Made by a program: the position numbers and the translations under genes. From NCBI GenBank assembly GCA_902621345.1, contig CACNLV010000001.1, positions 620,001 to 684,000 of the forward strand: a stretch of 64,000 nt of DNA. The letters run 5' to 3'. Below the pieces are notes generated by a model. That model had not been told where the DNA came from, made no database searches, and saw only the letters and a list, made by a program, of their open reading frames with translations. Below, in pieces: positions 21,125 through 52,015 of the stretch; the first letter of the stretch is position 1; the number at the start of each line of letters is the position of its first letter. The DNA comes from an uncultured Pelagibacteraceae bacterium. GTDB lineage: Bacteria > Pseudomonadota > Alphaproteobacteria > Pelagibacterales > Pelagibacteraceae.

Positions 21125-23344
21125 ATGTTTAAAAAATTCTTATTAATTATTAGTTTGTTTACAATTTTTAATCAATCTGTTCAAACATTTGCAGAAATAA
21201 TACCATTAAAAAAGCCTATACAAACTGTAGAGGAAAAAGAAAAGAAACTGCTTAAAGATGTCTTAAAACCTTTGCAAAAACCATCAACTAAAAAAGTCAT
21301 AAAAAACGAACAAAAACAACCTGATTACAAAAAAGTTACAAAAAAGAAGTCAAATATAGGTATAATTTTACCAAAAAAAAAACCTTTGATAGCAGGTGTT
21401 AAAAAAGACGATCCTGTTAAAAAATCAAAATATTACAGTAAAAAAGATTTTGCATTAGCAAAAAAAGCTTTGAGTGAGATGAAACAAGCAAAGTGGACCT
21501 CTGCTTTAAAAACTTCAAAAAGAGCTAGGGATAAATCAATTTATAATTTCATACAATGGAGACACCTCTTAACAAAAGGAAATAAAGCCTCGTATTATGA
21601 ATATAAAGCATTTATTGATGCTAATGAGGATTACCCGAGAATAGGTCGAATTAAATATTTAGCAGAACATAAACTTTCAACAGATACTGTGTCACCAAAA
21701 AAGATTATTAGTTGGTTTGAAGCTAGTGAACCGTTAAGTGGTTTTGGAAAAATGATACTAGGAGAAAGCTATATTTTGTTGGGCAATAAACAAAAGGGAA
21801 TATCATTAGTCAAAAAAGGATGGATAACAGCTGAACTTAACAGATCTGAACTTAAATTTTATAGGAAAAAATTTAAAAAATATCTAAATTCTGATGATTA
21901 TATTAAAAGAGCAGATTACCTTGCCTGGAATAATAAATATTGGGATTTAAAAAGACTTTTAAGATATTTACCAAAAGATTATCAGCTTTTATACACAGCT
22001 AGGCAACTTTTAATGAGTAAGTCATATGGTGTAGATAATGCTATTGCAAAAGTTCCTAATAAATTTAAAAATGATGCAGGGTTAAATTACGATAGATTAA
22101 AATGGAGACGAAAAAGAGGTAGGGTTGATAGTTCTCTGGAAATCTTATTAAAGATTAATAATACAAAAGATTATCTTGTTCGACCAGATAAATGGTGGAT
22201 AGAAAGAGAAATTATTTCAAGATCTCTTATTTATAAAAAAAAGTTTGAATTAGCTTATAAGATATCAAGTAATCATGCATTAACTGAAGGACCTGAATAT
22301 GCAGCAGCTGAATGGATGAGTGGATGGATAGCACTAAGTTTTTTAAATGACCCCTTATTGGCAAAAGATCATTTTGAAAATTTTTATAATAATGTGGGCT
22401 ATCCCATAAGTGTATCACGGGGTGCTTATTGGTTAGGAAAAACTTACCAAAAGCTTGGAGAAAAAAATTTAGCTATTGAATGGCTTGAAAAAGCTGCAGG
22501 ATTTTTAACCACTTATTACGGTCAATTAGCATTTATGGAACTAGATCCTAATAAAACTTTTGAACTTCCAAAAGATTTAGAGGTATCAAAAGATTATAAA
22601 GATTATTTTTTTAAAAAAGAATTAGTAAAAACAATTTATCTTCTTGATGAACTCAACAACGACAAATATACTAAACATATTCTTCGACACCTAGCTAATG
22701 ATAATATAGAAAATGGAAGTGAAATTTTGGCAGCACAATTAGCAACAAGTATTGATAGGTTTGATTTTGCAATTCAAATTGCTAAAATTGCCTCTTATGA
22801 AAAAAGATTTCATAATAAATTTAATTATCCAATTATAAGTACACCCAAATATATCAATGGGAGAAAAATTCCTGAAACTGCTTTTATTCTATCAATAATC
22901 AGACAAGAAAGTGAATTTGATTTAAGCGCCAATAGTCATGCAGGTGCAAAAGGTTTAATGCAACTTATGCCCTACACTGCAAAAGTAGTCGCTAAACAAG
23001 CAAAGCTTCCCTACTCAAAATCAAGATTAACAAAGGATGCTGAGTACAATATAAATCTTGGATCACATTACATAGCTGGTTTAATTCTTGATTATGATGG
23101 AGCTTATCCATTTGCTGTTGCTGCTTATAACGCTGGACCCAAAAGAGTTAAATATTGGAAAAAAATAAATAAAAACCCTCAAAAAAAGCAAATTGATTAT
23201 ATAAACTGGATTGAGCTAATTAAATTTAGAGAAACTAGAAATTATGTGCAAAGAGTTTTAGAAAATTATAATGTCTATCGATATATTTTAGAGCAAAAAC
23301 CAATAAAAATGAAAAATTTTTTTAAAGATGACCCTCTTTATTAA
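21125..23344 (+). CDS. slt: Soluble-type lytic murein transglycosylase
   Basis: Encodes 739 residues. A signal peptide (about residues 1-24, ending TFA) precedes a Lys/Pro-rich stretch to about 110 with IIPLKKP-like repeats. A long alpha-helical superhelix follows, then the C-terminal SLT domain: IRQESEFDLSANSHAGAKGL with the catalytic Glu, GLMQLMPYTA and VAAYNAGPKRV. It cleaves murein with 1,6-anhydro ends in the periplasm. Length matches Slt70-like proteins plus the extension. The TPR-glycosyltransferase gene follows 2 bases later. Confidence 0.9.
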   Translation: MFKKFLLIISLFTIFNQSVQTFAEIIPLKKPIQTVEEKEKKLLKDVLKPLQKPSTKKVIKNEQKQPDYKKVTKKKSNIGIILPKKKPLIAGVKKDDPVKKSKYYSKKDFALAKKALSEMKQAKWTSALKTSKRARDKSIYNFIQWRHLLTKGNKASYYEYKAFIDANEDYPRIGRIKYLAEHKLSTDTVSPKKIISWFEASEPLSGFGKMILGESYILLGNKQKGISLVKKGWITAELNRSELKFYRKKFKKYLNSDDYIKRADYLAWNNKYWDLKRLLRYLPKDYQLLYTARQLLMSKSYGVDNAIAKVPNKFKNDAGLNYDRLKWRRKRGRVDSSLEILLKINNTKDYLVRPDKWWIEREIISRSLIYKKKFELAYKISSNHALTEGPEYAAAEWMSGWIALSFLNDPLLAKDHFENFYNNVGYPISVSRGAYWLGKTYQKLGEKNLAIEWLEKAAGFLTTYYGQLAFMELDPNKTFELPKDLEVSKDYKDYFFKKELVKTIYLLDELNNDKYTKHILRHLANDNIENGSEILAAQLATSIDRFDFAIQIAKIASYEKRFHNKFNYPIISTPKYINGRKIPETAFILSIIRQESEFDLSANSHAGAKGLMQLMPYTAKVVAKQAKLPYSKSRLTKDAEYNINLGSHYIAGLILDYDGAYPFAVAAYNAGPKRVKYWKKINKNPQKKQIDYINWIELIKFRETRNYVQRVLENYNVYRYILEQKPIKMKNFFKDDPLY

Positions 23345-23346
23345 AT

Positions 23347-24942
23347 ATGGAATTTAATCAATCTTTTTTTCAGCAAAAATTAAAATCTGGAATTGAATTT
23401 TTCAATAAAAATAAACTAAATGAAGCTATTAGATGTTTTAAATTTTTAATAAATGAAAAATCGACACAAATTATAGCTTTTTTATATTTAGGAATAATAG
23501 AAATAAGAAAAAATAATAATGAAGACGCAAAAAAATATTTTTTTAAAATTCTTGAAATAGATAAAAATCATGAATTTGCAAATTTAAATTTAGGGCTCCT
23601 TTCTTTCCAAGAGAAAGATATAAAAAAAACAGTACATTATTTCAATAAAACAATAGAAATAAATCAAGAAAATTTGTTAGCTAAATATCATCTTGGATTA
23701 ATTGATATGATAAATAAGGAATATGAGATAGCCAAAAAAAAATTTGAAGATATTTTATTAAGAGAGCCAAAAAATATTAGCGCGCTTAATAATCTTGGGA
23801 TTTGTTATTCAAAGCAAATTAATTTTAAAAAAGCAATTAACTTATTTAAAGAATGTCTTAATATAAATAATAAAAATAAACAAGCTATCCTAAATTTGGC
23901 TAATTGTTTATTTCAAATAAAAGATTTTGAAAAATCAATCATAAATTACAATAAAGTTCTAGAGATTGATAAAGAACATGTTATTGCCAAGATAGGATTA
24001 AGTAAATGTTACTTTGCTTTACATAATTACGATAAGGCCTTTTATTTTTTTGAGGCAAGAAAAAAAGCGCAATTAGATAATATGAAAATTACTAATAAAT
24101 TGATTAAAGATTTTGATTGTAAAGAATGGTTTAAGGAAAAAATAGATAAAAAAAAAATTTTGATACTTAGTGAACAAGGTATTGGAGATAATTTACAATT
24201 TGCTAGATATATCTTTTGGTTAAAGGAAAAATTTAATTGTGATATAATTTTCTATGTTAATAAAAAAATTTCACACCTTTTTAAAAACTGTCCTTGTAAA
24301 ATTATAAATAATTTAGATCAAGTCGATAAAATTGACTTTTATCAATATTTATTATCTTTACCGTACATCTATTACATTATTGAAAATAAATTTAAAAAAT
24401 GTATTCCCTTTATTACTATTGATAAATCTAACAATTTATATTGGAAAAAAAAACTTGAAAAATTAAAAAAACCTCGAATTGTAATTCAATGGAAAGGTAA
24501 TGAAAAATTTGTTGATGACCAGCAAAGATCTATACCTATTAAATTTTTTAGTGATTTAATAAAAAATGAGAATTACTCTTTTATAAGTTTACAGAAAGAT
24601 AATTTTTCTACAGAAATTAAACAAAATAACCTACAAGATTTTATTACAGATTTTTCAGAATTGATTGATCTTGGGGATAAGAGTTTTTTAGATACCATAT
24701 CTGTTTTGAATAATATAGATTTATTAATTTCTGTTGATACCTCAATGACACACCTTGCATCTACAATGCAAACTAAAACTTTACTCTTACTCAATTCTAA
24801 TCCAGATTGGAGATGGCATGTTGAATTAAAAGAAAAATGTTTTTACGACAATCTAGAAATTGTAAAAGCTGATAAAATAAATAATTGGGGATCGATCTCT
24901 ATAATAGTTAATGATAAATTAAGAGAATTATTCAAAAACTAA
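23347..24942 (+). CDS. TPR-repeat protein with C-terminal glycosyltransferase-like domain
   Basis: Encodes 531 residues. About six or seven 34-residue tetratricopeptide repeats fill residues 5-245 (examples: AIRCFKFLINEKS and ALNNLGICYSKQINFKKAI). The rest resembles the GT9/GT41-like domain found in many TPR-glycosyltransferases: LSEQGIGDNLQFARYI and the donor-site region LISVDTSMTHLASTMQ, then NPDWRWH. It probably glycosylates a protein or envelope target, but the acceptor is unknown. No signal peptide is seen. It begins 2 bases after slt and is likely co-transcribed with it. Confidence 0.75.
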   Translation: MEFNQSFFQQKLKSGIEFFNKNKLNEAIRCFKFLINEKSTQIIAFLYLGIIEIRKNNNEDAKKYFFKILEIDKNHEFANLNLGLLSFQEKDIKKTVHYFNKTIEINQENLLAKYHLGLIDMINKEYEIAKKKFEDILLREPKNISALNNLGICYSKQINFKKAINLFKECLNINNKNKQAILNLANCLFQIKDFEKSIINYNKVLEIDKEHVIAKIGLSKCYFALHNYDKAFYFFEARKKAQLDNMKITNKLIKDFDCKEWFKEKIDKKKILILSEQGIGDNLQFARYIFWLKEKFNCDIIFYVNKKISHLFKNCPCKIINNLDQVDKIDFYQYLLSLPYIYYIIENKFKKCIPFITIDKSNNLYWKKKLEKLKKPRIVIQWKGNEKFVDDQQRSIPIKFFSDLIKNENYSFISLQKDNFSTEIKQNNLQDFITDFSELIDLGDKSFLDTISVLNNIDLLISVDTSMTHLASTMQTKTLLLLNSNPDWRWHVELKEKCFYDNLEIVKADKINNWGSISIIVNDKLRELFKN

Positions 24943-24957
24943 ATATTATCGAAGAAA

Positions 24958-25049
24958 TGGCGGAAAAGGAGGGATTCGAACCCTCGGTACAAGTTTCCTC
25001 GCACGGTCATTTAGCAAACGACTGGTTTAAGCCTCTCACCCACTTTTCC
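24958..25049 (-). tRNA. tRNA-Ser (anticodon GCT)
   Basis: On the minus strand the gene runs from GGAAAAG at 25049 to the CCA at 24960-24958, which is encoded. The acceptor stem GGAAAAG pairs with CTTTTCC. The anticodon stem GTCGT/ATGAC encloses the loop TTGCTAA, with the anticodon at 25013-25015 on the plus strand as agc. A long variable arm is present, as expected for tRNA-Ser, and the T-arm is GAGGG-TTCGAAT-CCCTC. It reads AGC and AGU codons. The gene lies between the TPR-glycosyltransferase and the sugar-epimerase genes. Confidence 0.96.
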
Positions 25050-25078: not shown

Positions 25079-26125
25079 TTACTTATATATATCAATAATT
25101 TCATCAATTATTGAATTACTATTATATAAAACTGACCATTTTGGATAATCTTTTTTAAATTTTGATAAATCAGAGATATACCAAATGTGATCTCCTATTC
25201 TATTTTTTTTTAAGTATTTAATCTTAATTTTTAATTTTAACCTTTTTTCAACATGATTAATGGCTTCTATTACTGAGCAGTTAGAATATTTTCCTCCACC
25301 AATATTGTAAACTTCACCAGGTTTTGGTTTTTTAACAAATTCCCAAAAAGCATTAATTAGATCCTTACTATGGAGATTGTCTCTAACTTGTTTACCTTTA
25401 TAGCCAATAATATTATAGGATTTATTTTTTATACAAGACTTTACTAAAAAAGATAAAAAACCATGTAATCCAGCACCAGAATGATTTGGTCCAGTCAAGC
25501 ATCCTGCTCTAAAAATTCCAATTTTTAAACCATAATTTTTCCCAAATTCCTGAGCAAGGATATCAGCATATGTTTTTGAAACACCAAAAAAACTATGAAC
25601 AGAATTATCAATATTAAAATTTTCATTTATTCCTTTTTTTAAAAATAATTTTGATAAAGGTTCATATCGTGTTCTTTTTTCAACTAACTTCAATCTATTA
25701 GGACTATCACCATAAACTTTATTAGTGGATAAATAGATGACTTTAGCTAAAGGACAATACTTTTGCGTATTAGTAAAAATATTTAAAGAACCCAGTGCAT
25801 TAACTTCAAAATCTAAAAAGATATTATCTTTAGCAAAATCGTGTGATGGCTGAGCTGCTGCATGAATTACAATAGAAATGTTTTTATTAAATTTTTTAAA
25901 TATATTTTGTATTTTTTCCTTATTTCTTATATCAAAATTATATTGAGTATAGCTTCTATTCTTGCTAAGTTTTTTTTGTATCCACAGTGTATTTCCATCA
26001 CTTCCAAAAAATTTTTTTCTAAGGTTATTATCTATTCCTATTACCTTAAAACCTTTTTTTAAAAAAAAAAAAGCAGACTCAGATCCAACCAAACCATTAG
26101 AGCCTGTGATTAAGACAATTGACAT
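25079..26125 (-). CDS. NAD-dependent epimerase/dehydratase, CDP-paratose 2-epimerase-like
   Basis: Encodes 348 residues of the extended SDR fold. The Rossmann glycine motif is ITGSNGLVGSESAFFF. HAAAQPSHDFAKDN, LSTNKVYGD and FRAGCLTGPNHSGAGLHG are like CDP-paratose/CDP-tyvelose epimerases. The usual catalytic Tyr of YxxxK is Phe here (FFGVSK), which I recall as a feature of this subgroup. No CDP-sugar synthesis genes are present, so the exact substrate is uncertain. Its ATG overlaps or abuts the second SDR stop upstream. The product likely enters a surface glycan. Confidence 0.78.
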   Translation of the reverse strand: MSIVLITGSNGLVGSESAFFFLKKGFKVIGIDNNLRKKFFGSDGNTLWIQKKLSKNRSYTQYNFDIRNKEKIQNIFKKFNKNISIVIHAAAQPSHDFAKDNIFLDFEVNALGSLNIFTNTQKYCPLAKVIYLSTNKVYGDSPNRLKLVEKRTRYEPLSKLFLKKGINENFNIDNSVHSFFGVSKTYADILAQEFGKNYGLKIGIFRAGCLTGPNHSGAGLHGFLSFLVKSCIKNKSYNIIGYKGKQVRDNLHSKDLINAFWEFVKKPKPGEVYNIGGGKYSNCSVIEAINHVEKRLKLKIKIKYLKKNRIGDHIWYISDLSKFKKDYPKWSVLYNSNSIIDEIIDIYK

Positions 26126-27165
26126 TATAATAACTTTTTTAAGGCTTTTTTATTTTTAATCAAGCTTTGAAATGTTTCATTTATAATAGTGTTTAATTTT
26201 TTAACAACTCTCCATTTATAATTAGAATAAATTTTTTTGTTATCTGTTATGTAATATCGCAAATCATAATTAGAAGTTTTGATTTTCTTTTTAAATTTTA
26301 TCTTATTTTTTGTAATATTCTCACAATACTTGGTTAATTCTTTTAATGAAATTGCATTAGTTGATCCTCCCCCAACATTAAAAGTATGATTATTTATTTT
26401 AGAAATTTTAGAAATTTGCTCTTCAATTAATGAGCATAAATCATTTATATCTAGTATATCTCTTATTTGATTTCCATAACCTCCGTAACCTTGATATGTT
26501 ATCGGGATCCTATTTATGTGCCTCCAAAGCCACATACTAATGAATCCTTGGTCTTGTTTCCCAAATTGACCATAACCTGATACAACTCCAAATCTATTTA
26601 TAAGATATTTAATATTATAAAGATATGAATATTCTTTTATTAAATTTTCTGAACTTAATTTAGTAAAACCATAAAATGAAACAGGAGATTCTTTTGAAAA
26701 TTTCTCATTAATTTTTATCTTTTTTTTTAATCTTGTTTTAAAACTGATATTTTTAAATAAATTGTTTATTTTATTAATTGAATATACCCGTGACGTTGAA
26801 AGGTAAATTATCTTAGAGTTATTAATTTTAGCTATTTCTAACAAATTTAATGTAGATCTTAAATTAGAGTCAAAAACTAATTTAGAATTTTTTTTTGATA
26901 ATTCTACGGAAGGCTCTGCGCAACAATCTATAATCAAGTTAATTTTTTTTTTTATATTTTTTAATTTTTTTAAACAATTATTTGATGCTAAATTTAACTT
27001 AAAGTTCTTAATATTGTAATTTTTCAATTTTTTTTGGTTTAAATATGAGGTATTTCTTGATAAATTATCAACTGTAATAACAACAGAATTTTTAATTTTT
27101 TGCTTTAAATAAATTGCTAGACTGGATCCTATAAATCCACATCCACCAGGAATTAATATAAGCAT
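26125..27165 (-). CDS. NAD-dependent epimerase/dehydratase (second SDR of the pair)
   Basis: Encodes 346 residues. The glycine motif is IPGGCGFIGSSLAIYL; CCAEPSVELSK, LSTSRVY and the catalytic Tyr-Lys in SFYGFTKLSSEN follow. VVSGYGQFGKQDQGF and QIRDILDINDL resemble the CDP-paratose epimerase group. Unlike its neighbour it keeps the Tyr of YxxxK. The gene is first in the leftward pair. Its start codon at 27163-27165 can share CATG with the divergent glycosyltransferase. The protein is very rich in Lys, Asn and Ile. Confidence 0.75.
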   Translation of the reverse strand: MLILIPGGCGFIGSSLAIYLKQKIKNSVVITVDNLSRNTSYLNQKKLKNYNIKNFKLNLASNNCLKKLKNIKKKINLIIDCCAEPSVELSKKNSKLVFDSNLRSTLNLLEIAKINNSKIIYLSTSRVYSINKINNLFKNISFKTRLKKKIKINEKFSKESPVSFYGFTKLSSENLIKEYSYLYNIKYLINRFGVVSGYGQFGKQDQGFISMWLWRHINRIPITYQGYGGYGNQIRDILDINDLCSLIEEQISKISKINNHTFNVGGGSTNAISLKELTKYCENITKNKIKFKKKIKTSNYDLRYYITDNKKIYSNYKWRVVKKLNTIINETFQSLIKNKKALKKLL

Positions 27166-27883
27166 GATTAATTATATGGATTTAACAATTATAATACCAG
27201 TTAAAAATGAGGCAAACAATATCTCGAATATTGTTGAATCGATTAATTCAAAAATTAAAGTTGATTATGAAATATTATTTATAGATGATTTTAGTACAGA
27301 CAATACAACAAATGTAATAAAAAATTTTCAAAATGAAAATAATAAAATTAAACTTATCAAAAATGAATTCAGTGGGTTGGGACAGTCAATCAGAAATGGT
27401 ATTAAACACTCTAATGGAAAGTATTTATCCATCCTAATGTGTGATGGCTCTGATGATTTAGAAGATCTAAATCGTTATTACTTTACAATTAAGGATAATA
27501 ATTTAGATGCTGTATTTGGGTCTAGATTTCTTCATAAATCGAAAATTTATGATTACCCAAAATTTAAGTTAATTTTGAACAGAATATTTAATTATTTTGT
27601 AAGTCTAGTTTATCTAAATAAGTATAACGATTATACAAATGCTTTTAAAATCTACAAAAAAGATACTCTTTTAAAAATTGAACCTATTGTTTCTGAGAGT
27701 TTTAACGTTTTTTTAGAATTACCATTAAAGATAATAAATAGAAAATTAAATTATAAGATTATTTCCATTAATTGGTATGGAAGGAAAGACGGAGTTTCAA
27801 AATTTAAATTTAAAGAATTAAGATCTAAATATCTGTTTACTTTGATTTATTGTTTAGCAGAAAAGATTTTATTACTTAAATAA
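27164..27883 (+). CDS. Glycosyltransferase family 2
   Basis: Encodes 239 residues (235 if the ATG at 27176 is used, giving MDLTIIIPVKNEANNI). The GT-A fold has the nucleotide-binding IIIPVKNEANN, FIDDFSTDNT and MCDGSDDLEDL as the DxD region, then GSRFLHKS. It resembles dolichol/polyprenol-phosphate sugar synthases but lacks C-terminal membrane helices. It probably transfers a sugar to a lipid carrier or glycan. Its last 37 bases overlap the convergent membrane-protein gene. Confidence 0.82.
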   Translation: MINYMDLTIIIPVKNEANNISNIVESINSKIKVDYEILFIDDFSTDNTTNVIKNFQNENNKIKLIKNEFSGLGQSIRNGIKHSNGKYLSILMCDGSDDLEDLNRYYFTIKDNNLDAVFGSRFLHKSKIYDYPKFKLILNRIFNYFVSLVYLNKYNDYTNAFKIYKKDTLLKIEPIVSESFNVFLELPLKIINRKLNYKIISINWYGRKDGVSKFKFKELRSKYLFTLIYCLAEKILLLK

Positions 27884-29820
27884 GGATAATATATCTTAGA
27901 AAAAGCATTCAAAAAAACAATAAAAGATAATAACCATGCTCCCATTGAATATCTTGGATCGCCAAGAAAAAATAAAAAAGAAAAATGCATAAATATCAGA
28001 GAAATAGACAAAATTTTAATTTTAATCTCTAATTTTTGATAAAAAACAAAAAATAAATTTAACAAAATTATAAAGAACCATAATTCGTAAATCTTTATAT
28101 AGTGATTTAAATGATTAAAAATATTTAAATTTTCATTTTTATTAAATGATTGAAAAAAAATCATATAGTCCTTTAAGCTAATATGTAAACTACTTTCTAT
28201 ATTTTGATTTTGGATTAAAGGAACAATTTCATTTGAATAGATGTAATTATGTAGCGGGATAAGAAAAATAAAAGATCCTCCAAAAAATAAAAAAAAAATA
28301 TGTTTACCAAAATCTAAAATATTATCTTTTTGAAGAACCATATAAATTATATAAAATGTCAAAAAAGGTATAATAAATGCTAGATAATTTGGTCTCAATC
28401 CAATTACTAAAAAGGACAAAAAACCTATGAAAAATAAATTTATTTTTTTTTCATTTTTAAGAAAAAGATAGATTATTATTAGCAGGAAAAAATAACATAT
28501 ACCCTCTGCATAACCATCAACTGTAAAATTAATATAATTAATCAATGCGAATCCCAATGACTCAAAAATAGGTAAAAAAATAAAAATTAATGTTAGAATT
28601 TTTGGTAAAGGGTTTTTTAAAAATAATTCAAAGAGTTTATAGAAAGTAATAGGAAAAAAAGAAATTAAATATATATTTCCAAAAATTGTATCACCAAAAA
28701 ATAAAGAAAAAAAAGCATTTAAATATCTGGAAAGGGGCATATAAAAAAATATATCTTCAACACCTCTTAAACCCTCATAAATATTCCCCAAAAAAATATT
28801 ATTTAATATTATTCGTGAAAAACCATAATGGGCCATCCCATCCATTCCTCTATCGAAATAAAAAGTTTCAGAAAATCCAGAAACTGAATTGGGACTAAAT
28901 TTCAAATATATAAATAAAACAACATAAAAGGATATAGAAAAAAATAAAAATAATTTATTGATATTAAAAAAATTTGTTAGAATTAATGAGATTAATAAAA
29001 TAGATAATAGATTGTAGATTAAATAACTATTATTGTATAAAATATTACTTTTTATATTTATTTTTAAATTTCTTTTATAATCTAAAAAAAAATAATCCTT
29101 TTTACTATCTATGATGACACATTTATTTGTTTTGTTTTCTACTAGTATAAATTCTTTATCTTTTTCATAAATAAGATTGCCAACAAAACACAAGTTTGAG
29201 TTATGATTATTTTTCCAAAAATTTAATTTTATAAGTGTTGGAAAAATAATATTATTCTTATAGTTTTTTTTTTGGGGATCTCCAAAATTCAAATTTGTAT
29301 CATTAAGTGCAGATGGACCGAAATCCCAAAAATTCATATTCTTACGAATAAAAACAAGTTTTCCCTCTTCAAATTTTGTCCACAAATTTTCAGATTGAAA
29401 TGCATATTTTTTAAAAAGCGTAGATTTTTCACTCGACCCTGGTTGTTGAATATTTTTTAACAATCTTTCCTGGTTTTCCAATTTTGTTAACTCTTTTTTT
29501 AAAATTTTTTCAAAATCTTCTGGAAATGTTTTCTTTATATAATCAAAATCTTTAGTAAATGAGGTCGGCAAAACTATATGGTTTACTATCACACGATTAT
29601 TCGAAAATAAATTTTGTAAAATGAAGAAAAATATAAAAATAAAGATAAATAGAAATTTATTGTGATTCTCTTTTTGTAAAATATTTGAAAAAAAAATTAT
29701 TGTAGTTGATAAGCTAAGTAAAATTAGTTTTTCCCATGTATTAAATGGGGGTGGTATAATTATTACGATTAGTAAAAAAGTAATAATTTTGATTGTATAT
29801 GTTTTAGAAAAATCAATCAT
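27847..29820 (-). CDS. Large multi-pass membrane protein, possible GT-C-type glycosyltransferase
   Basis: Encodes 657 residues from the ATG at 29820 (a TTG at 29829 is less likely). Two or three N-terminal membrane segments are followed by a soluble loop of about 190 residues (100-265), then about ten more membrane segments. YFDRGMDGMAHYGFSRI before the second membrane block is reminiscent of the acidic first-loop motif of GT-C enzymes, but I cannot assign a family. Its neighbours (GT2 and SDR pair) suggest surface polysaccharide assembly. It faces soxB across about 70 bases. Confidence 0.55.
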   Translation of the reverse strand: MIDFSKTYTIKIITFLLIVIIIPPPFNTWEKLILLSLSTTIIFFSNILQKENHNKFLFIFIFIFFFILQNLFSNNRVIVNHIVLPTSFTKDFDYIKKTFPEDFEKILKKELTKLENQERLLKNIQQPGSSEKSTLFKKYAFQSENLWTKFEEGKLVFIRKNMNFWDFGPSALNDTNLNFGDPQKKNYKNNIIFPTLIKLNFWKNNHNSNLCFVGNLIYEKDKEFILVENKTNKCVIIDSKKDYFFLDYKRNLKINIKSNILYNNSYLIYNLLSILLISLILTNFFNINKLFLFFSISFYVVLFIYLKFSPNSVSGFSETFYFDRGMDGMAHYGFSRIILNNIFLGNIYEGLRGVEDIFFYMPLSRYLNAFFSLFFGDTIFGNIYLISFFPITFYKLFELFLKNPLPKILTLIFIFLPIFESLGFALINYINFTVDGYAEGICYFFLLIIIYLFLKNEKKINLFFIGFLSFLVIGLRPNYLAFIIPFLTFYIIYMVLQKDNILDFGKHIFFLFFGGSFIFLIPLHNYIYSNEIVPLIQNQNIESSLHISLKDYMIFFQSFNKNENLNIFNHLNHYIKIYELWFFIILLNLFFVFYQKLEIKIKILSISLIFMHFSFLFFLGDPRYSMGAWLLSFIVFLNAFSKIYYPYLSNKIFSAKQ

Positions 29821-29893
29821 TTGTTCCAATTATTCAATACCTGTGAAATTTTAGAATATTGAAAATAATTAACTTATAAAGTAAACATTGCCT

Positions 29894-31147
29894 ATGAAAA
29901 ATAAGTATTCAATCTTTTCTTTAGTAAAAAATGCATTTTCTTACCATGAAAATTGGCAAAAAGCATGGGGTGATCCGGAGCCAAAAAAAGAATATGACAT
30001 TGTAATTGTTGGTGGCGGAGGTCATGGATTAGCGACGGCTTACTATCTTGCTAAAAAACATAATATGAAAAATATAGCTGTATTAGAAAAGGGCTGGATT
30101 GGTGGAGGTAATACTGGAAGAAATACTACTATAATAAGATCAAATTATTTATGGGATGCAAGTGCAGGTTTATATGATCATGCATTAAAAATTTGGGAAA
30201 ATCTTTCTCAGGAATTAAATTACAATGTAATGTTTAGTCAACGCGGTGTGATGAATCTAGCTCATAACTTGCAAGATGTTAGAGATCTTAAAAGAAGGAC
30301 TCATGCTAACAGATTAAATGGTATTGATGCAGTCTATCTAAATACACAACAAGTGAAAAAATTTTGTCCAATTATAAACACATCTCCAGACATTAGATAT
30401 CCAGTTTTAGGTGGGACTCTCCAGCGGAGAGCTGGTACTGCACGTCATGATGCCGTAGCTTGGGGTTATGCAAGAGGTGCTGATGAAATGGGTGTTGATA
30501 TAATTCAAAATTGTGAAGTTAAAGGAATTAAAAGAAATGGTGATAGTGTTGATGGAGTTGAAACAACAAAAGGTTTTATCAAAACAAAAAAAATTGGTGT
30601 TGTTGCTGCTGGCCATTCAAGTGTAATAGCAAACATGGCAGGTTTAAAGTTACCTTTGGAAAGTAAACCTCTTCAGGCATTAGTATCCGAGCCAGTAAAA
30701 CCTATTATTGATACAGTAGTTATGTCTAATGCTGTACATGCCTATGTTAGCCAGTCTGATAAAGGTGAGCTAGTAATTGGAGCAGGCACAGATGACTACG
30801 TTTCATATTCTCAAAAAGGAAGTCATGAAATTGTAGAGGGAACCTTAAATGCTATTTTAGAATTATATCCTATATTTAGTCGAATGAGAATGTTAAGACA
30901 ATGGGGTGGTATTGTAGATATATGTCCTGACGCAAGTCCCATAATTAGTAAAACACCAATTAAAGGTTTATACTTTAATTGCGGTTGGGGAACTGGAGGA
31001 TTCAAAGCAACACCAGGTTCAGGAGATCTATTCGCTCATACAATAGCAAATGATGAACCTCATAAATTAAATGCTGCATTTAATCTTAATAGATTTGTAA
31101 GTGGAGATCTTGTTGATGAGCATGGTGCAGCTGCTGTAGCACATTAA
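29894..31147 (+). CDS. soxB: Sarcosine oxidase subunit beta
   Basis: Encodes 417 residues from the ATG at 29894; a TTG at 29888 would add two. The FAD-binding motif is [33 protein letters not shown] holds the histidine expected to bind FMN covalently. [14 protein letters not shown] forms the C-terminal flavin contact. It is the catalytic subunit of the heterotetrameric enzyme that demethylates sarcosine to glycine with THF as methylene acceptor. It leads the rightward soxBDAG operon; soxD overlaps by one base. Confidence 0.96.
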
Positions 31148-49904: not shown

Positions 49905-51203
49905 TTACCTTCCGATACTGGTGTAATCTATTCTTAAATCTCTCATTTTATCTTGAGAATAGATATTTCTCATATCAAAAACTTTAAAATTCTTTTTTTT
50001 TACAAGCCGTTTAAAGTCTAGTAACTTAAAAGCATTCCATTCAGTGTGAATAATTATAAGATCACTTTTGATGCAAGCTGAAGAAATACTACTGTAGAAT
50101 TTAACATTCTTTAACTTATCAAATTCCTTTTTTCTTCCTGAAGGGTCGTAATATCTGATTTTACTTCCTTTCTTATTTAAATAATTAATCATTGGAATAC
50201 TTGATGCTTCCCTCATATCATCAGTATTAGGTTTAAAAGTTACACCTAAAAACGTAATGTTTTTATTTTTAAGTTTATTGTTCAAAATCTTATCAATTCT
50301 ATTTGTAAGAGTTATTTTTCTTTGATTATTCGATTTAACAACGCTTTTTATAATAGAAAGATCAGTTTTATATTTATCAGCAATGTCAATTAAAGCTCTT
50401 GTATCTTTAGGAAAGCATGAACCTCCATAAGCAGGTCCTGCCCTTAAAAATCTATCACCAATTCTTTGATCCAAGCCCATACCAATAGAAATATCTTGTA
50501 TATTAACATCAATTTTTTCACATAAATTTGCCAATTCGTTTATGTAAGAAATTTTTGTAGCCAAAAAAGCATTAGATGCATATTTTACCATTTCAGCACC
50601 TCTTCTTGAGGTCTTAAAATATCTGCTAGATTTTTTTATTATAGGTAAGTACAAAGATTTTAAAATTTTGTTAGCTTTATTACTGTCAGTTCCAACAACA
50701 ACTCTATCAGGATAAATAAAATCTCTTATAGCTTCACCCTCTCTTAAAAATTCAGGATTTGAAACAACATCTATTAATTTTTTTTTCTTTAAATTTCTTA
50801 AAATTTTTTCAATTTTATCTCCTGTAGTTACTGGGACCGTAGATTTTGTTATGATGATTTTGTATTTGGAAATACTTTTTTTTAATTGTTTTGCTACATT
50901 AAATACATGCTTTAAATCAGCTGAATTACCTTTTTTTTGTGTAGGGGTTCCGACACAAATAAATATAATATCAGATTTCTTAACTGCTTCACTTAGATTT
51001 GAAGTAAAAAATAATCTTTTAGCTTTATGATTTCTTTTCAATATTTCTTCTAATCCTGGTTCATAAATAGGTACTTTTCCTTTGTTAAGTGAGTCAATTT
51101 TATTTCTATCTTTATCAACACAATAAACAACATTTCCTACATCAGAAAAACAAACACCACTGACAAGTCCAACATAGCCTGTCCCTATCATGCATAATTT
51201 CAT
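49905..51203 (-). CDS. ugd: UDP-glucose 6-dehydrogenase
   Basis: Encodes 432 residues. The NAD-binding motif is MIGTGYVGLVSGVCFSD, the catalytic Cys is in AGPAYGGSCFPKDTRAL, and VTFKPNTDDMREASS is in the C-terminal UDP-binding domain. It oxidises UDP-glucose to UDP-glucuronate for envelope polysaccharides. It follows galU with a 4-base overlap, so the two steps are coupled. Confidence 0.96.
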   Translation of the reverse strand: MKLCMIGTGYVGLVSGVCFSDVGNVVYCVDKDRNKIDSLNKGKVPIYEPGLEEILKRNHKAKRLFFTSNLSEAVKKSDIIFICVGTPTQKKGNSADLKHVFNVAKQLKKSISKYKIIITKSTVPVTTGDKIEKILRNLKKKKLIDVVSNPEFLREGEAIRDFIYPDRVVVGTDSNKANKILKSLYLPIIKKSSRYFKTSRRGAEMVKYASNAFLATKISYINELANLCEKIDVNIQDISIGMGLDQRIGDRFLRAGPAYGGSCFPKDTRALIDIADKYKTDLSIIKSVVKSNNQRKITLTNRIDKILNNKLKNKNITFLGVTFKPNTDDMREASSIPMINYLNKKGSKIRYYDPSGRKKEFDKLKNVKFYSSISSACIKSDLIIIHTEWNAFKLLDFKRLVKKKNFKVFDMRNIYSQDKMRDLRIDYTSIGR

Positions 51204-52015
51204 AATTTTGAAATCTCAATTCCAGATTTTATATAACCACTCATACTTCCACAGTCCAAGTATTTACCAGAAAAGTTATGAGCTATAAATTTTTGATTTT
51301 CTTTAATTAAAGTTTGAATAGAATCGGTAATATGTATTTCACCACCCTTACCCGGCTTTTGTGACAATAATTTTACAAATATTTTTTTTGGCAAAATATA
51401 TCTTCCAATTACAGCTTTATTGGACGGCGCTTCTTTTATAGATGGCTTTTCAATAACACTCTCAATAAAAAAATTATTTTTATCTATTTTTTTTTTCAAT
51501 TTATAGATACCCCATCTAGATACTGTTTTTTTATTAACATTCATACTCGCCATAACAGATGCTTTATATTTTTTATGTATTTGAATCATAGATTTTGAGC
51601 AGTTTTTTTTTACTATAAGGTCATCTGGTAGTAACATCAAAAAAAATTTATCTTTAATAATATTTTTAGTTTTAAGAACTGCATCACCTGTGCCTAAAGG
51701 TTTGTTTTGATAAACAAATTTTATAATTTTTTTATATCTTAAAATTTTTTTGTATTCTTTTAATGTTCTAGGATCTTTCTTTTTTTTAATTATCTTTTTA
51801 TAAAAATTATCATTATAAAAATATTTTTTAATCATCTTTTTTTTTTTTGAAATAATAAAAACAACTTCTTTTATTCCGGCCTCAATACATTCATCTAAAA
51901 TATACTCAATTCCAGGTTTACCGTTTATAGGTAAAAGCTCTTTGGCAAAAACACTAGTTAATGGTAATAATCTAGTGCCTAAACCAGCTAAAGGAATAAT
52001 TGCTTGTTTAATCAT
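51200..52015 (-). CDS. galU: UTP-glucose-1-phosphate uridylyltransferase
   Basis: Encodes 271 residues. The nucleotidyltransferase signature is PLAGLGTRLLPLTSVFAKE, with GTGDAVLKTK and FLMLLPDDLIV as the UTP/metal region. It makes UDP-glucose, the substrate of Ugd encoded directly downstream. It faces panC across 34 bases. Confidence 0.95.
   Translation of the reverse strand: MIKQAIIPLAGLGTRLLPLTSVFAKELLPINGKPGIEYILDECIEAGIKEVVFIISKKKKMIKKYFYNDNFYKKIIKKKKDPRTLKEYKKILRYKKIIKFVYQNKPLGTGDAVLKTKNIIKDKFFLMLLPDDLIVKKNCSKSMIQIHKKYKASVMASMNVNKKTVSRWGIYKLKKKIDKNNFFIESVIEKPSIKEAPSNKAVIGRYILPKKIFVKLLSQKPGKGGEIHITDSIQTLIKENQKFIAHNFSGKYLDCGSMSGYIKSGIEISKL

Follow-up and report, generated by a model that had tools for sequence, protein, structure and literature searches.

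What function could be served by four genes, two of them encoding related short-chain dehydrogenase/reductases (SDRs), that lie between a tRNA-Ser(GCU) gene and soxB in an uncultured bacterium of the SAR11 family Pelagibacteraceae, and how could one of these SDRs take part if it carries phenylalanine at the position of the catalytic tyrosine? The stretch analysed here (hereafter the window) comprises 64,000 nucleotides, bases 620,001-684,000 of one contig (CACNLV010000001.1) of a 1.19-Mb genome in 4 contigs that is 97.3% complete and whose size and gene content fit SAR11. An earlier note made from the sequence alone described the block as two SDR genes (here SDR1 and SDR2), a glycosyltransferase gene of family GT2 and a gene for a 657-residue membrane protein, and its coordinates, strands, gene kinds and location on the 5′ side of the tRNA were all correct (Table 1). 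On balance, we are inclined to read the block, together with the whole pathway proposed below, as a horizontally acquired cell-surface glycosylation cassette in a low-occupancy slot between tRNA-Ser and soxB. As judged by sequence comparison, the slot holds varying cargo, the SDR1-SDR2-GT2 set recurs, and the Tyr-to-Phe change in SDR1 is conserved and not a local loss. The exchange of cassettes is in itself ordinary, and the interest lies in the SDR clade that lacks the tyrosine. Statements cited by PMC number refer to excerpts of those papers.

The slot between tRNA-Ser and soxB

A soxB-like match was present in 82 of the 103 good genomes of the family, and the region before soxB was compared in 40 genomes of the same genus. 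In 30 of these loci the SLT-domain protein gene, tRNA-Ser and soxB occur without anything inserted; the other 10 carry cargo, which in relatives lies on either side of the tRNA. The earlier note had proposed a variable surface-glycan block, to be set against uniform conservation as a core region. The block was missing at this place in all 40 same-genus loci, which supports the proposal. The nearest locus (L064, soxB 96% identical) has the gene for the tetratricopeptide repeat (TPR) protein (82% identical) without the block, and TPR genes at 36-38% identity were found in L094, L096 and L097. SDR1 (62%) occurs in L082 on the opposite side of the tRNA, without SDR2. Further cargo consists of a GDP-mannose dehydratase-like gene (390.5 bits, cut-off 415) with a GT11 gene in L087, a methyltransferase gene in L090, a gene for a protein without Pfam match in L101, and genes for a urea transporter and an amidase in L093. 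On exactly the same side of the tRNA as the block, L075 carries genes for a cytidylyltransferase (266.8 bits as glucose-1-phosphate cytidylyltransferase, under the cut-off of 300.25), a CDP-glucose 4,6-dehydratase (346.7 bits, over the cut-off), a C-methyltransferase, a GT2 and a PMT_2-like membrane protein (E 8.4e-5, under the cut-off); this set is unrelated to the window's block and follows the same logic. The best relatives of SDR1, found in three genera, are 63% identical to it, and full-length soxB is 91-97% identical within the genus.

No integrase-like open reading frame (ORF) was seen among the ORFs of the window, and no repeat of a tRNA fragment above chance was found in it, in agreement with the earlier view that classic integration at the tRNA 3′ end does not explain the block. 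Since neither an integrase nor a tRNA repeat supports site-specific integration, recombination in the flanks would be the likeliest route of exchange, as proposed for other aquatic bacteria (PMC4033161). By eye, the soxB-proximal 460 bases of L093 contain a possible decayed tRNA-Ser 5′ end, which the repeat search did not report.

SDR1 belongs to a clade without the catalytic tyrosine

SDR1 carries the motif SFFGVSK, with Phe180 at the position of the catalytic Tyr, and SDR2 the motif SFYGFTK, with Tyr165. The earlier note had recognized this difference and had missed the conservation of Phe across phyla, the recurrence of SDR1-SDR2-GT2 and the other glycosylation sets in the slot. The closest PDB sequence match of both proteins is a CDP-tyvelose 2-epimerase, and the best structural match of the SDR1 model, with a predicted local distance difference test score (pLDDT) of 85, is the CDP-tyvelose epimerase 1orr (Z 42.0, next 35.9).

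We compared 132 distinct SDR1 relatives (80 from named genomes, 35 from SAR11, 12 from other Alphaproteobacteria and 5 from plasmids). Inclusion in this comparison required at least 44% identity for SDR1 and 38% for SDR2, and 11 other matches were set aside as outgroup; four of these are Tyr-type, and three of the four lie in the same loci as an SDR1, to which they are 31-33% identical. The catalytic position is occupied by Phe in 131 relatives, by Met in one and by Tyr in none, the Met-bearing relative being a SAR11 sequence that retains the TNK motif. Invariant residues include Asn135, Lys136, Lys184, His95, His177, His221 and His313, and there is little or no variation at the Gly of the NAD motif or at Thr, Asn, Lys and several His. 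The TNK motif has Thr in 131 sequences, Ser in one, and Asn and Lys in all. Because the named-genome and viral searches used the patterns STNKVYGD/TNKVYGD and KQVRDN, the conservation of these motifs is partly built in; that of His95, Phe180 and His221 is not affected.

The named-genome search returned at least 588 relatives, many of them in metagenome-assembled genomes; in the best 80 loci, which were kept, Phe was present throughout, and by record title these loci belong to Pseudomonadota, Bacteroidota, Cyanobacteriota, Verrucomicrobiota, Planctomycetota, Acidobacteriota and others. The viral loci, 81 in number (contigs with the best 80 of 212 relatives, and one 635-kb phage), showed Phe in 79, Leu in 2 and Tyr in none, and two viral motifs read HTFFGVSK. 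All 12 loci of other Alphaproteobacteria are of the Phe type, seven of them with SDR2 within the stretch read. SDR1 was present in 52 of 247 genomes of the family, our own included, the others being 48-63% identical (E <= 1e-90). In alignment with the T. atlanticus enzyme, SDR1 keeps T124-N125-K126 and K168 and has Phe at Tyr164; two of its histidines take contact positions, His95 that of Met85 within the VAM contact segment and His221 that of the sugar-contacting Gln205 (PMC13098431).

A literature search, which covered titles and abstract openings and left most subscription papers outside, found no description of a natural Phe-type SDR family, and the clade is apparently a large, undescribed enzyme group of bacteria and phages. 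We tentatively put forward the possibility that SDR1 represents a second natural class of tyrosine-less nucleotide-sugar SDRs (F-x3-K, with two invariant active-site His) in at least 10 bacterial phyla and many phages, making a sugar that would be finished by SDR2 in one pathway and passed to GT26 or fucosyltransferase-like enzymes in others. Among 22 plasmid relatives, 20 are annotated as 'NAD-dependent epimerase/dehydratase family protein' and two have no feature; the relatives examined are without the residue thought essential for that reaction.

On a plasmid of Candidatus Fukatsuia symbiotica (L239) the SDR1 relative lies beside genes for a nonribosomal peptide synthetase, a glycosyltransferase and a UDP-glucuronate decarboxylase, a neighbourhood that suggests that this aphid symbiont makes a natural product carrying a sugar. 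SDR1 is common in viral contigs, where it lies in islands that also hold GT10, GT11, GT25 and FkbM methyltransferase genes; some of these adjoin, by eye, genes resembling ribonucleotide reductase.

SDR2 and its association with SDR1

SDR1 and SDR2 are 32% identical. In a tree with few outgroups each of them is monophyletic (support 0.95 and 1.0, respectively) and the two are sister clades, with four tyvelose-epimerase-like sequences apart; SAR11 sequences form a single clade in SDR2 and not in SDR1. The catalytic Tyr and a Ser-Arg pair at the Asn-Lys positions were found in 62 of 62 SDR2 sequences. Relative to the T. atlanticus enzyme, SDR2 thus keeps the Tyr-Lys pair and Gln205, with Ser-Arg replacing Asn-Lys.

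In 20 SDR1 loci of the family, chosen mostly as best matches with five more divergent or complete genomes, SDR2 was directly adjacent in 15, about 7 kb away in one and absent from four. Eight loci of one other SAR11 genus have the order PMT_2-like, SDR1, SDR2, GT2, UppP-like, where the Pfam search was run on one PMT_2-like and one UppP-like member. The best 80 named-genome loci, 25 of which extend for less than 3 kb on one side or other, contain SDR2 in 29 cases, GT2 in 36, GtrA in 7 and a membrane protein of about 630 residues in 9. Across 385 genomes of the class, taken as the same in both scans from their equal size and handles, SDR1 (E < 1e-140) was present in 13, SDR2 in 11 and both in 10 (P 2e-16, ignoring kinship). 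The only genome with SDR2 alone (G470) is 70% complete, and the three with SDR1 alone are all of one genus. Twelve SAR11 genomes, picked because no SDR2 had been seen beside SDR1 and with G000 and G009 included as positives, were searched again for SDR2; only these two had it. In five of the other 10 the only matches were cross-matches to SDR1 itself or, for G137, to a distant SDR1 relative (39% identical), and five gave none. Some near-complete SAR11 genomes, among them G005 (single-contig) and G051, thus have a Phe-type SDR1 and no SDR2. An SDR2-like gene was found within about 6 kb in 2 of the 81 viral loci, with a weaker third; for the remaining loci a copy in the host is possible.

Since SDR2 is nearly always found with SDR1 and the reverse does not hold, SDR1 would act first and SDR2 second. 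The earlier note had left open whether the two SDRs act in sequence or as a heterodimer; the asymmetry of their co-occurrence favours the sequence, and SDR1 without SDR2 in G005, G051 and most viral loci disfavours an obligate heterodimer. SDR2 (29 loci) and a WecG/TagA/CpsF transferase (21 loci) never occur together in the best 80 loci, which suggests at least two uses of the SDR1 product.

The glycosyltransferase and the membrane protein

The GT2 protein aligned over most of its length to ArnC and dolichol-phosphate mannose synthase (DPMS), it matches the PHROG 'GtrB-like O-antigen conversion', and in a Nostoc locus its relative is fused to a GtrA domain. These similarities, all at the level of sequence, place it with the GtrB-type polyprenyl-phosphate glycosyltransferases.

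The membrane protein has no relative elsewhere in the 247 family genomes, and relatives were found in 8 of 288 other genomes of the class, one of them weak and with stops. Those in other Alphaproteobacteria are 23-34% identical over the matched parts and share the stretch GGxDGLxHxGF...RGxExIFYxMPGxRY. Two relatives adjoin an SDR gene, and one (L265) follows a UbiA-family gene, which recalls the pentofuranose systems of PMC11127046 and polyprenyl-phosphoribose pathways. An alignment of six relatives, with G325 (split, L264/L269) and G355 (L268) left out, matched the PMT_2-like set weakly in an hhalign comparison (probability 63%, E 7e-5) and gave a probability of 14.9% against the set of about 630 residues. 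The match to the PMT_2-like set lends some support to a GT-C glycosyltransferase, for which the protein is a candidate.

The probable nucleotide-sugar substrate

The earlier note had observed that the upstream genes for synthesis of CDP-3,6-dideoxyhexoses are not present and that the SDRs may act on another nucleotide sugar. Both statements were supported: a scan of PF00483 and PF01370 matches in the genome assigned no gene to this synthesis. No such match was best assigned to glucose-1-phosphate cytidylyltransferase and none reached the cut-off of CDP-glucose 4,6-dehydratase, the weakest SDR matches being left unassigned. The cytidine-binding residues of TyvE are Trp207, Trp210 and Phe211 (PMC7851689); at these positions SDR1 has Phe/Tyr/Leu, and SDR2 mostly has Phe or Val/Leu/Trp. 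Ala variants of Asn125 and Lys126 in the T. atlanticus enzyme lost activity with CDP-glucose (PMC13098431).

The genome has genes resembling RmlA, RmlB, GDP-mannose pyrophosphorylase, GalU, MurU and UDP-glucose dehydrogenase (NCBIfam), of which only RmlB and the nucleotide-sugar dehydrogenase subfamily passed the cut-off; UDP-glucose 6-dehydrogenase-like and GalU-like genes lie at 49905-52015, 20 kb from the cassette. From this gene set, UDP-, dTDP- and GDP-sugars are likelier precursors than CDP-sugars. Genes for UDP-glucose dehydrogenase/UDP-glucuronate decarboxylase (UGD/UXS), RmlB-like, GT10/GT11 and GT26 proteins were all found near SDR1, the RmlB, UXS and GT26 labels being BLAST matches to one query each and RmlB and UXS possibly other SDR dehydratases; as all of them occur, no single substrate can be deduced from the neighbourhood. 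On contig C2 (L241), genes for an SDR, a PseC/LegC-like aminotransferase and a NeuB-like synthase stand in a row, which suggests a nonulosonic acid pathway elsewhere in the genome.

Proposed pathway and alternative explanations

In the pathway that we propose, SDR1 would act first, on a common nucleotide sugar and not on a CDP-dideoxyhexose, with a proton acceptor other than Tyr, for which His95, His221 and Thr134 are candidates. SDR2 would act on the product with the usual Tyr-Lys pair, and the GT2 would load the sugar onto undecaprenyl phosphate in the cytoplasm. A flippase encoded outside the block would flip the lipid-linked sugar, and the membrane protein would move the sugar to a surface glycan on the outside. 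The effect of the cassette is likely a changed surface antigen relevant to phage attachment.

Several observations weigh against this proposal. None of the four block genes encodes a flippase, a GtrA-like gene being present in 7 of the best 80 relatives' loci. At the limits applied, searches of Pfam, PDB and PHROG gave no match for the membrane protein; its single-sequence model reached a pLDDT of 41, and when aligned alone it gave hhalign probabilities of 2.8% against the set of about 630 residues and 0.4% against the PMT_2-like set. The idea of His in place of Tyr comes from an alignment and not from a ligand-bound structure. The class-wide counts of 13 and 11 genomes derive from scans in which, for most genomes, no more than five candidates were scored, and copies in SDR-rich genomes could therefore be missed. 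Finally, the slot is not reserved for glycans, since L093 carries urea-transport genes.

Integration of a mobile element targeting the tRNA would account for the position of the block directly beside a tRNA gene, where integration is common. We consider it very improbable given the lack of an integrase-like ORF and of tRNA repeats above chance in the window, and the cargo that relatives carry on both sides of the tRNA. It is also improbable, as judged by co-occurrence alone, that SDR1 is a catalytically dead protein serving SDR2 as heterodimer partner or regulator. The two are sister paralogs, 32% identical and often adjacent, the canonical base is gone from SDR1, and a Tyr-to-Phe change in an ordinary SDR epimerase cost about 1200-fold (PMC7984243). 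However, SDR1 stands without SDR2 in SAR11, including the single-contig G005, in 3 of the 13 class genomes (one genus) and, within the stretch read, in most of the 81 viral loci. Moreover, a decaying active site would not be expected to keep the Gly of the NAD motif, Thr, Asn, Lys and several His as nearly invariant as they are in SDR1, and working tyrosine-less nucleotide-sugar SDRs exist in PglF and WbpM (PMC8987622).

As to the substrate, the SDR pair could be CDP-paratose/tyvelose 2-epimerases fed by CDP-sugars made elsewhere. CDP-tyvelose 2-epimerases are indeed closest by fold and sequence, L075 holds a CDP-glucose set at the same slot, and relatives of those two CDP-glucose genes occur in the SDR1 region of L104. 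The own genome, however, is without a gene best assigned to CDP-glucose synthesis or at the CDP-glucose 4,6-dehydratase cut-off, the CDP-binding pattern Trp207/Trp210/Phe211 (PMC7851689) is lost in both SDRs, and SDR1 is without Tyr164 and SDR2 without Asn125 and Lys126 (PMC13098431); we regard this reading as improbable. A narrower form of our proposal, in which the substrate of SDR1 is UDP-glucuronate, UDP-xylose or a related UDP-pentose, fits the best 80 loci, 9 of which have genes resembling UDP-glucuronate decarboxylase and 6 genes resembling UDP-glucose dehydrogenase, the same kinds of genes in viral loci and annotated plasmids, and the UGD-like and GalU-like genes within the window. Nevertheless, most loci are without both gene types, and viral GT10/GT11 neighbours suggest GDP-sugars, which fits the genome's GDP-mannose pyrophosphorylase-like gene, so that this narrower form appears rather unlikely.

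Altogether, the block is an ordinary swapped surface-glycan set containing a less ordinary enzyme. If active, SDR1 would offer a second test case of tyrosine-free catalysis, and a sugar widespread among bacteria and phages would be left to identify. The slot is also a natural experiment: some related SAR11 genomes have a defined glycosylation set and others do not, so that effects on phage sensitivity could be tested between them.

Layout and composition of the locus

Table 1. Genes of the block and its surroundings, in window positions
Feature	Position	Strand	Remarks
SLT-domain protein	21125..23344	+	Conserved left edge of slot
TPR protein, weak GT9-like C-terminus	23347..24942	+	Variable cargo, 3′ side of tRNA; relatives in 4/40 loci
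tRNA-Ser(GCU)	24958..25049	-	Slot anchor; genome's sole match to its own sequence at E 0.001
SDR1	25079..26125	-	Extended SDR; Phe180 at catalytic Tyr, TNK motif retained, His95/His221 invariant among compared sequences
SDR2	26125..27165	-	Extended SDR, sister of SDR1; Tyr165 and Lys169; T-S-R at TNK position
GT2	27164..27883	+	Polyprenyl-phosphate glycosyltransferase type (GtrB/DPMS/ArnC-like)
657-residue membrane protein	27847..29820 (ATG; 29829 if TTG)	-	About 10 hydrophobic segments; candidate GT-C glycosyltransferase
soxB	29888..31147	+	Conserved right edge of slot

The annotated starts of the divergent SDR2 and GT2 genes overlap, and the 3′ ends of the GT2 and membrane-protein genes overlap by 37 bases. 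The unusual richness in Lys, Asn, Ile and Phe that the earlier note ascribed to the block was overstated: the genes are AT-rich against the sox genes, yet within the window they do not stand out. The four proteins rank 17, 6, 8 and 2 among its 58 genes for the sum of these residues, and the GC content at third codon positions, 0.14-0.18, resembles that of the rest (mean 0.17).

The SDR1 stop lies 29 bases from tRNA-Ser(GCU), so that the tRNA promoter must overlap the cassette end or the tRNA be read through from the cassette. A promoter-like site (TTGATA-17-TAAATT) overlaps the SDR1 stop before the tRNA; such sites are no commoner than chance (26 observed vs 41 expected), and we give it no weight.

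Comparison with known systems

The CDP-tyvelose (CDP-paratose) 2-epimerase (1orr, 9rl0; EC 5.1.3.10) shares with the two proteins the extended SDR fold (by the model for SDR1 and by sequence for SDR2), the TNK motif with SDR1 and the Tyr-Lys pair with SDR2. It differs from SDR1, which has Phe in place of Tyr164 and His in place of both Met85 and Gln205, from SDR2, which has T-S-R for T-N-K, and from both in the cytidine-binding residues. GtrA/GtrB/GtrC are three-component glycosylation systems; the block resembles them in its GtrB-like GT2 and large membrane protein, and GtrA is also present in some relatives' loci. The pentofuranose pathway (PMC11127046) likewise has SDR epimerases as accessory enzymes. 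Unlike in either of these systems, two SDRs probably modify the window's sugar while it is a nucleotide sugar, and the block contains neither a UbiA-type phosphoribosyl step nor a flippase.

PglF and WbpM, the Mx3K UDP-GlcNAc 4,6-dehydratases, are likewise natural nucleotide-sugar SDRs without the catalytic Tyr; they have Met and TDK (PMC8987622), whereas SDR1 has Phe and TNK and is nearest to tyvelose-type epimerases. Finally, although the slot is mostly empty (30/40) and at least one of its cargoes is a transport set, it is like the replacement flexible genomic islands of aquatic bacteria (PMC4033161) in having different cargo at the same position, surface functions and no clear marks of illegitimate recombination.

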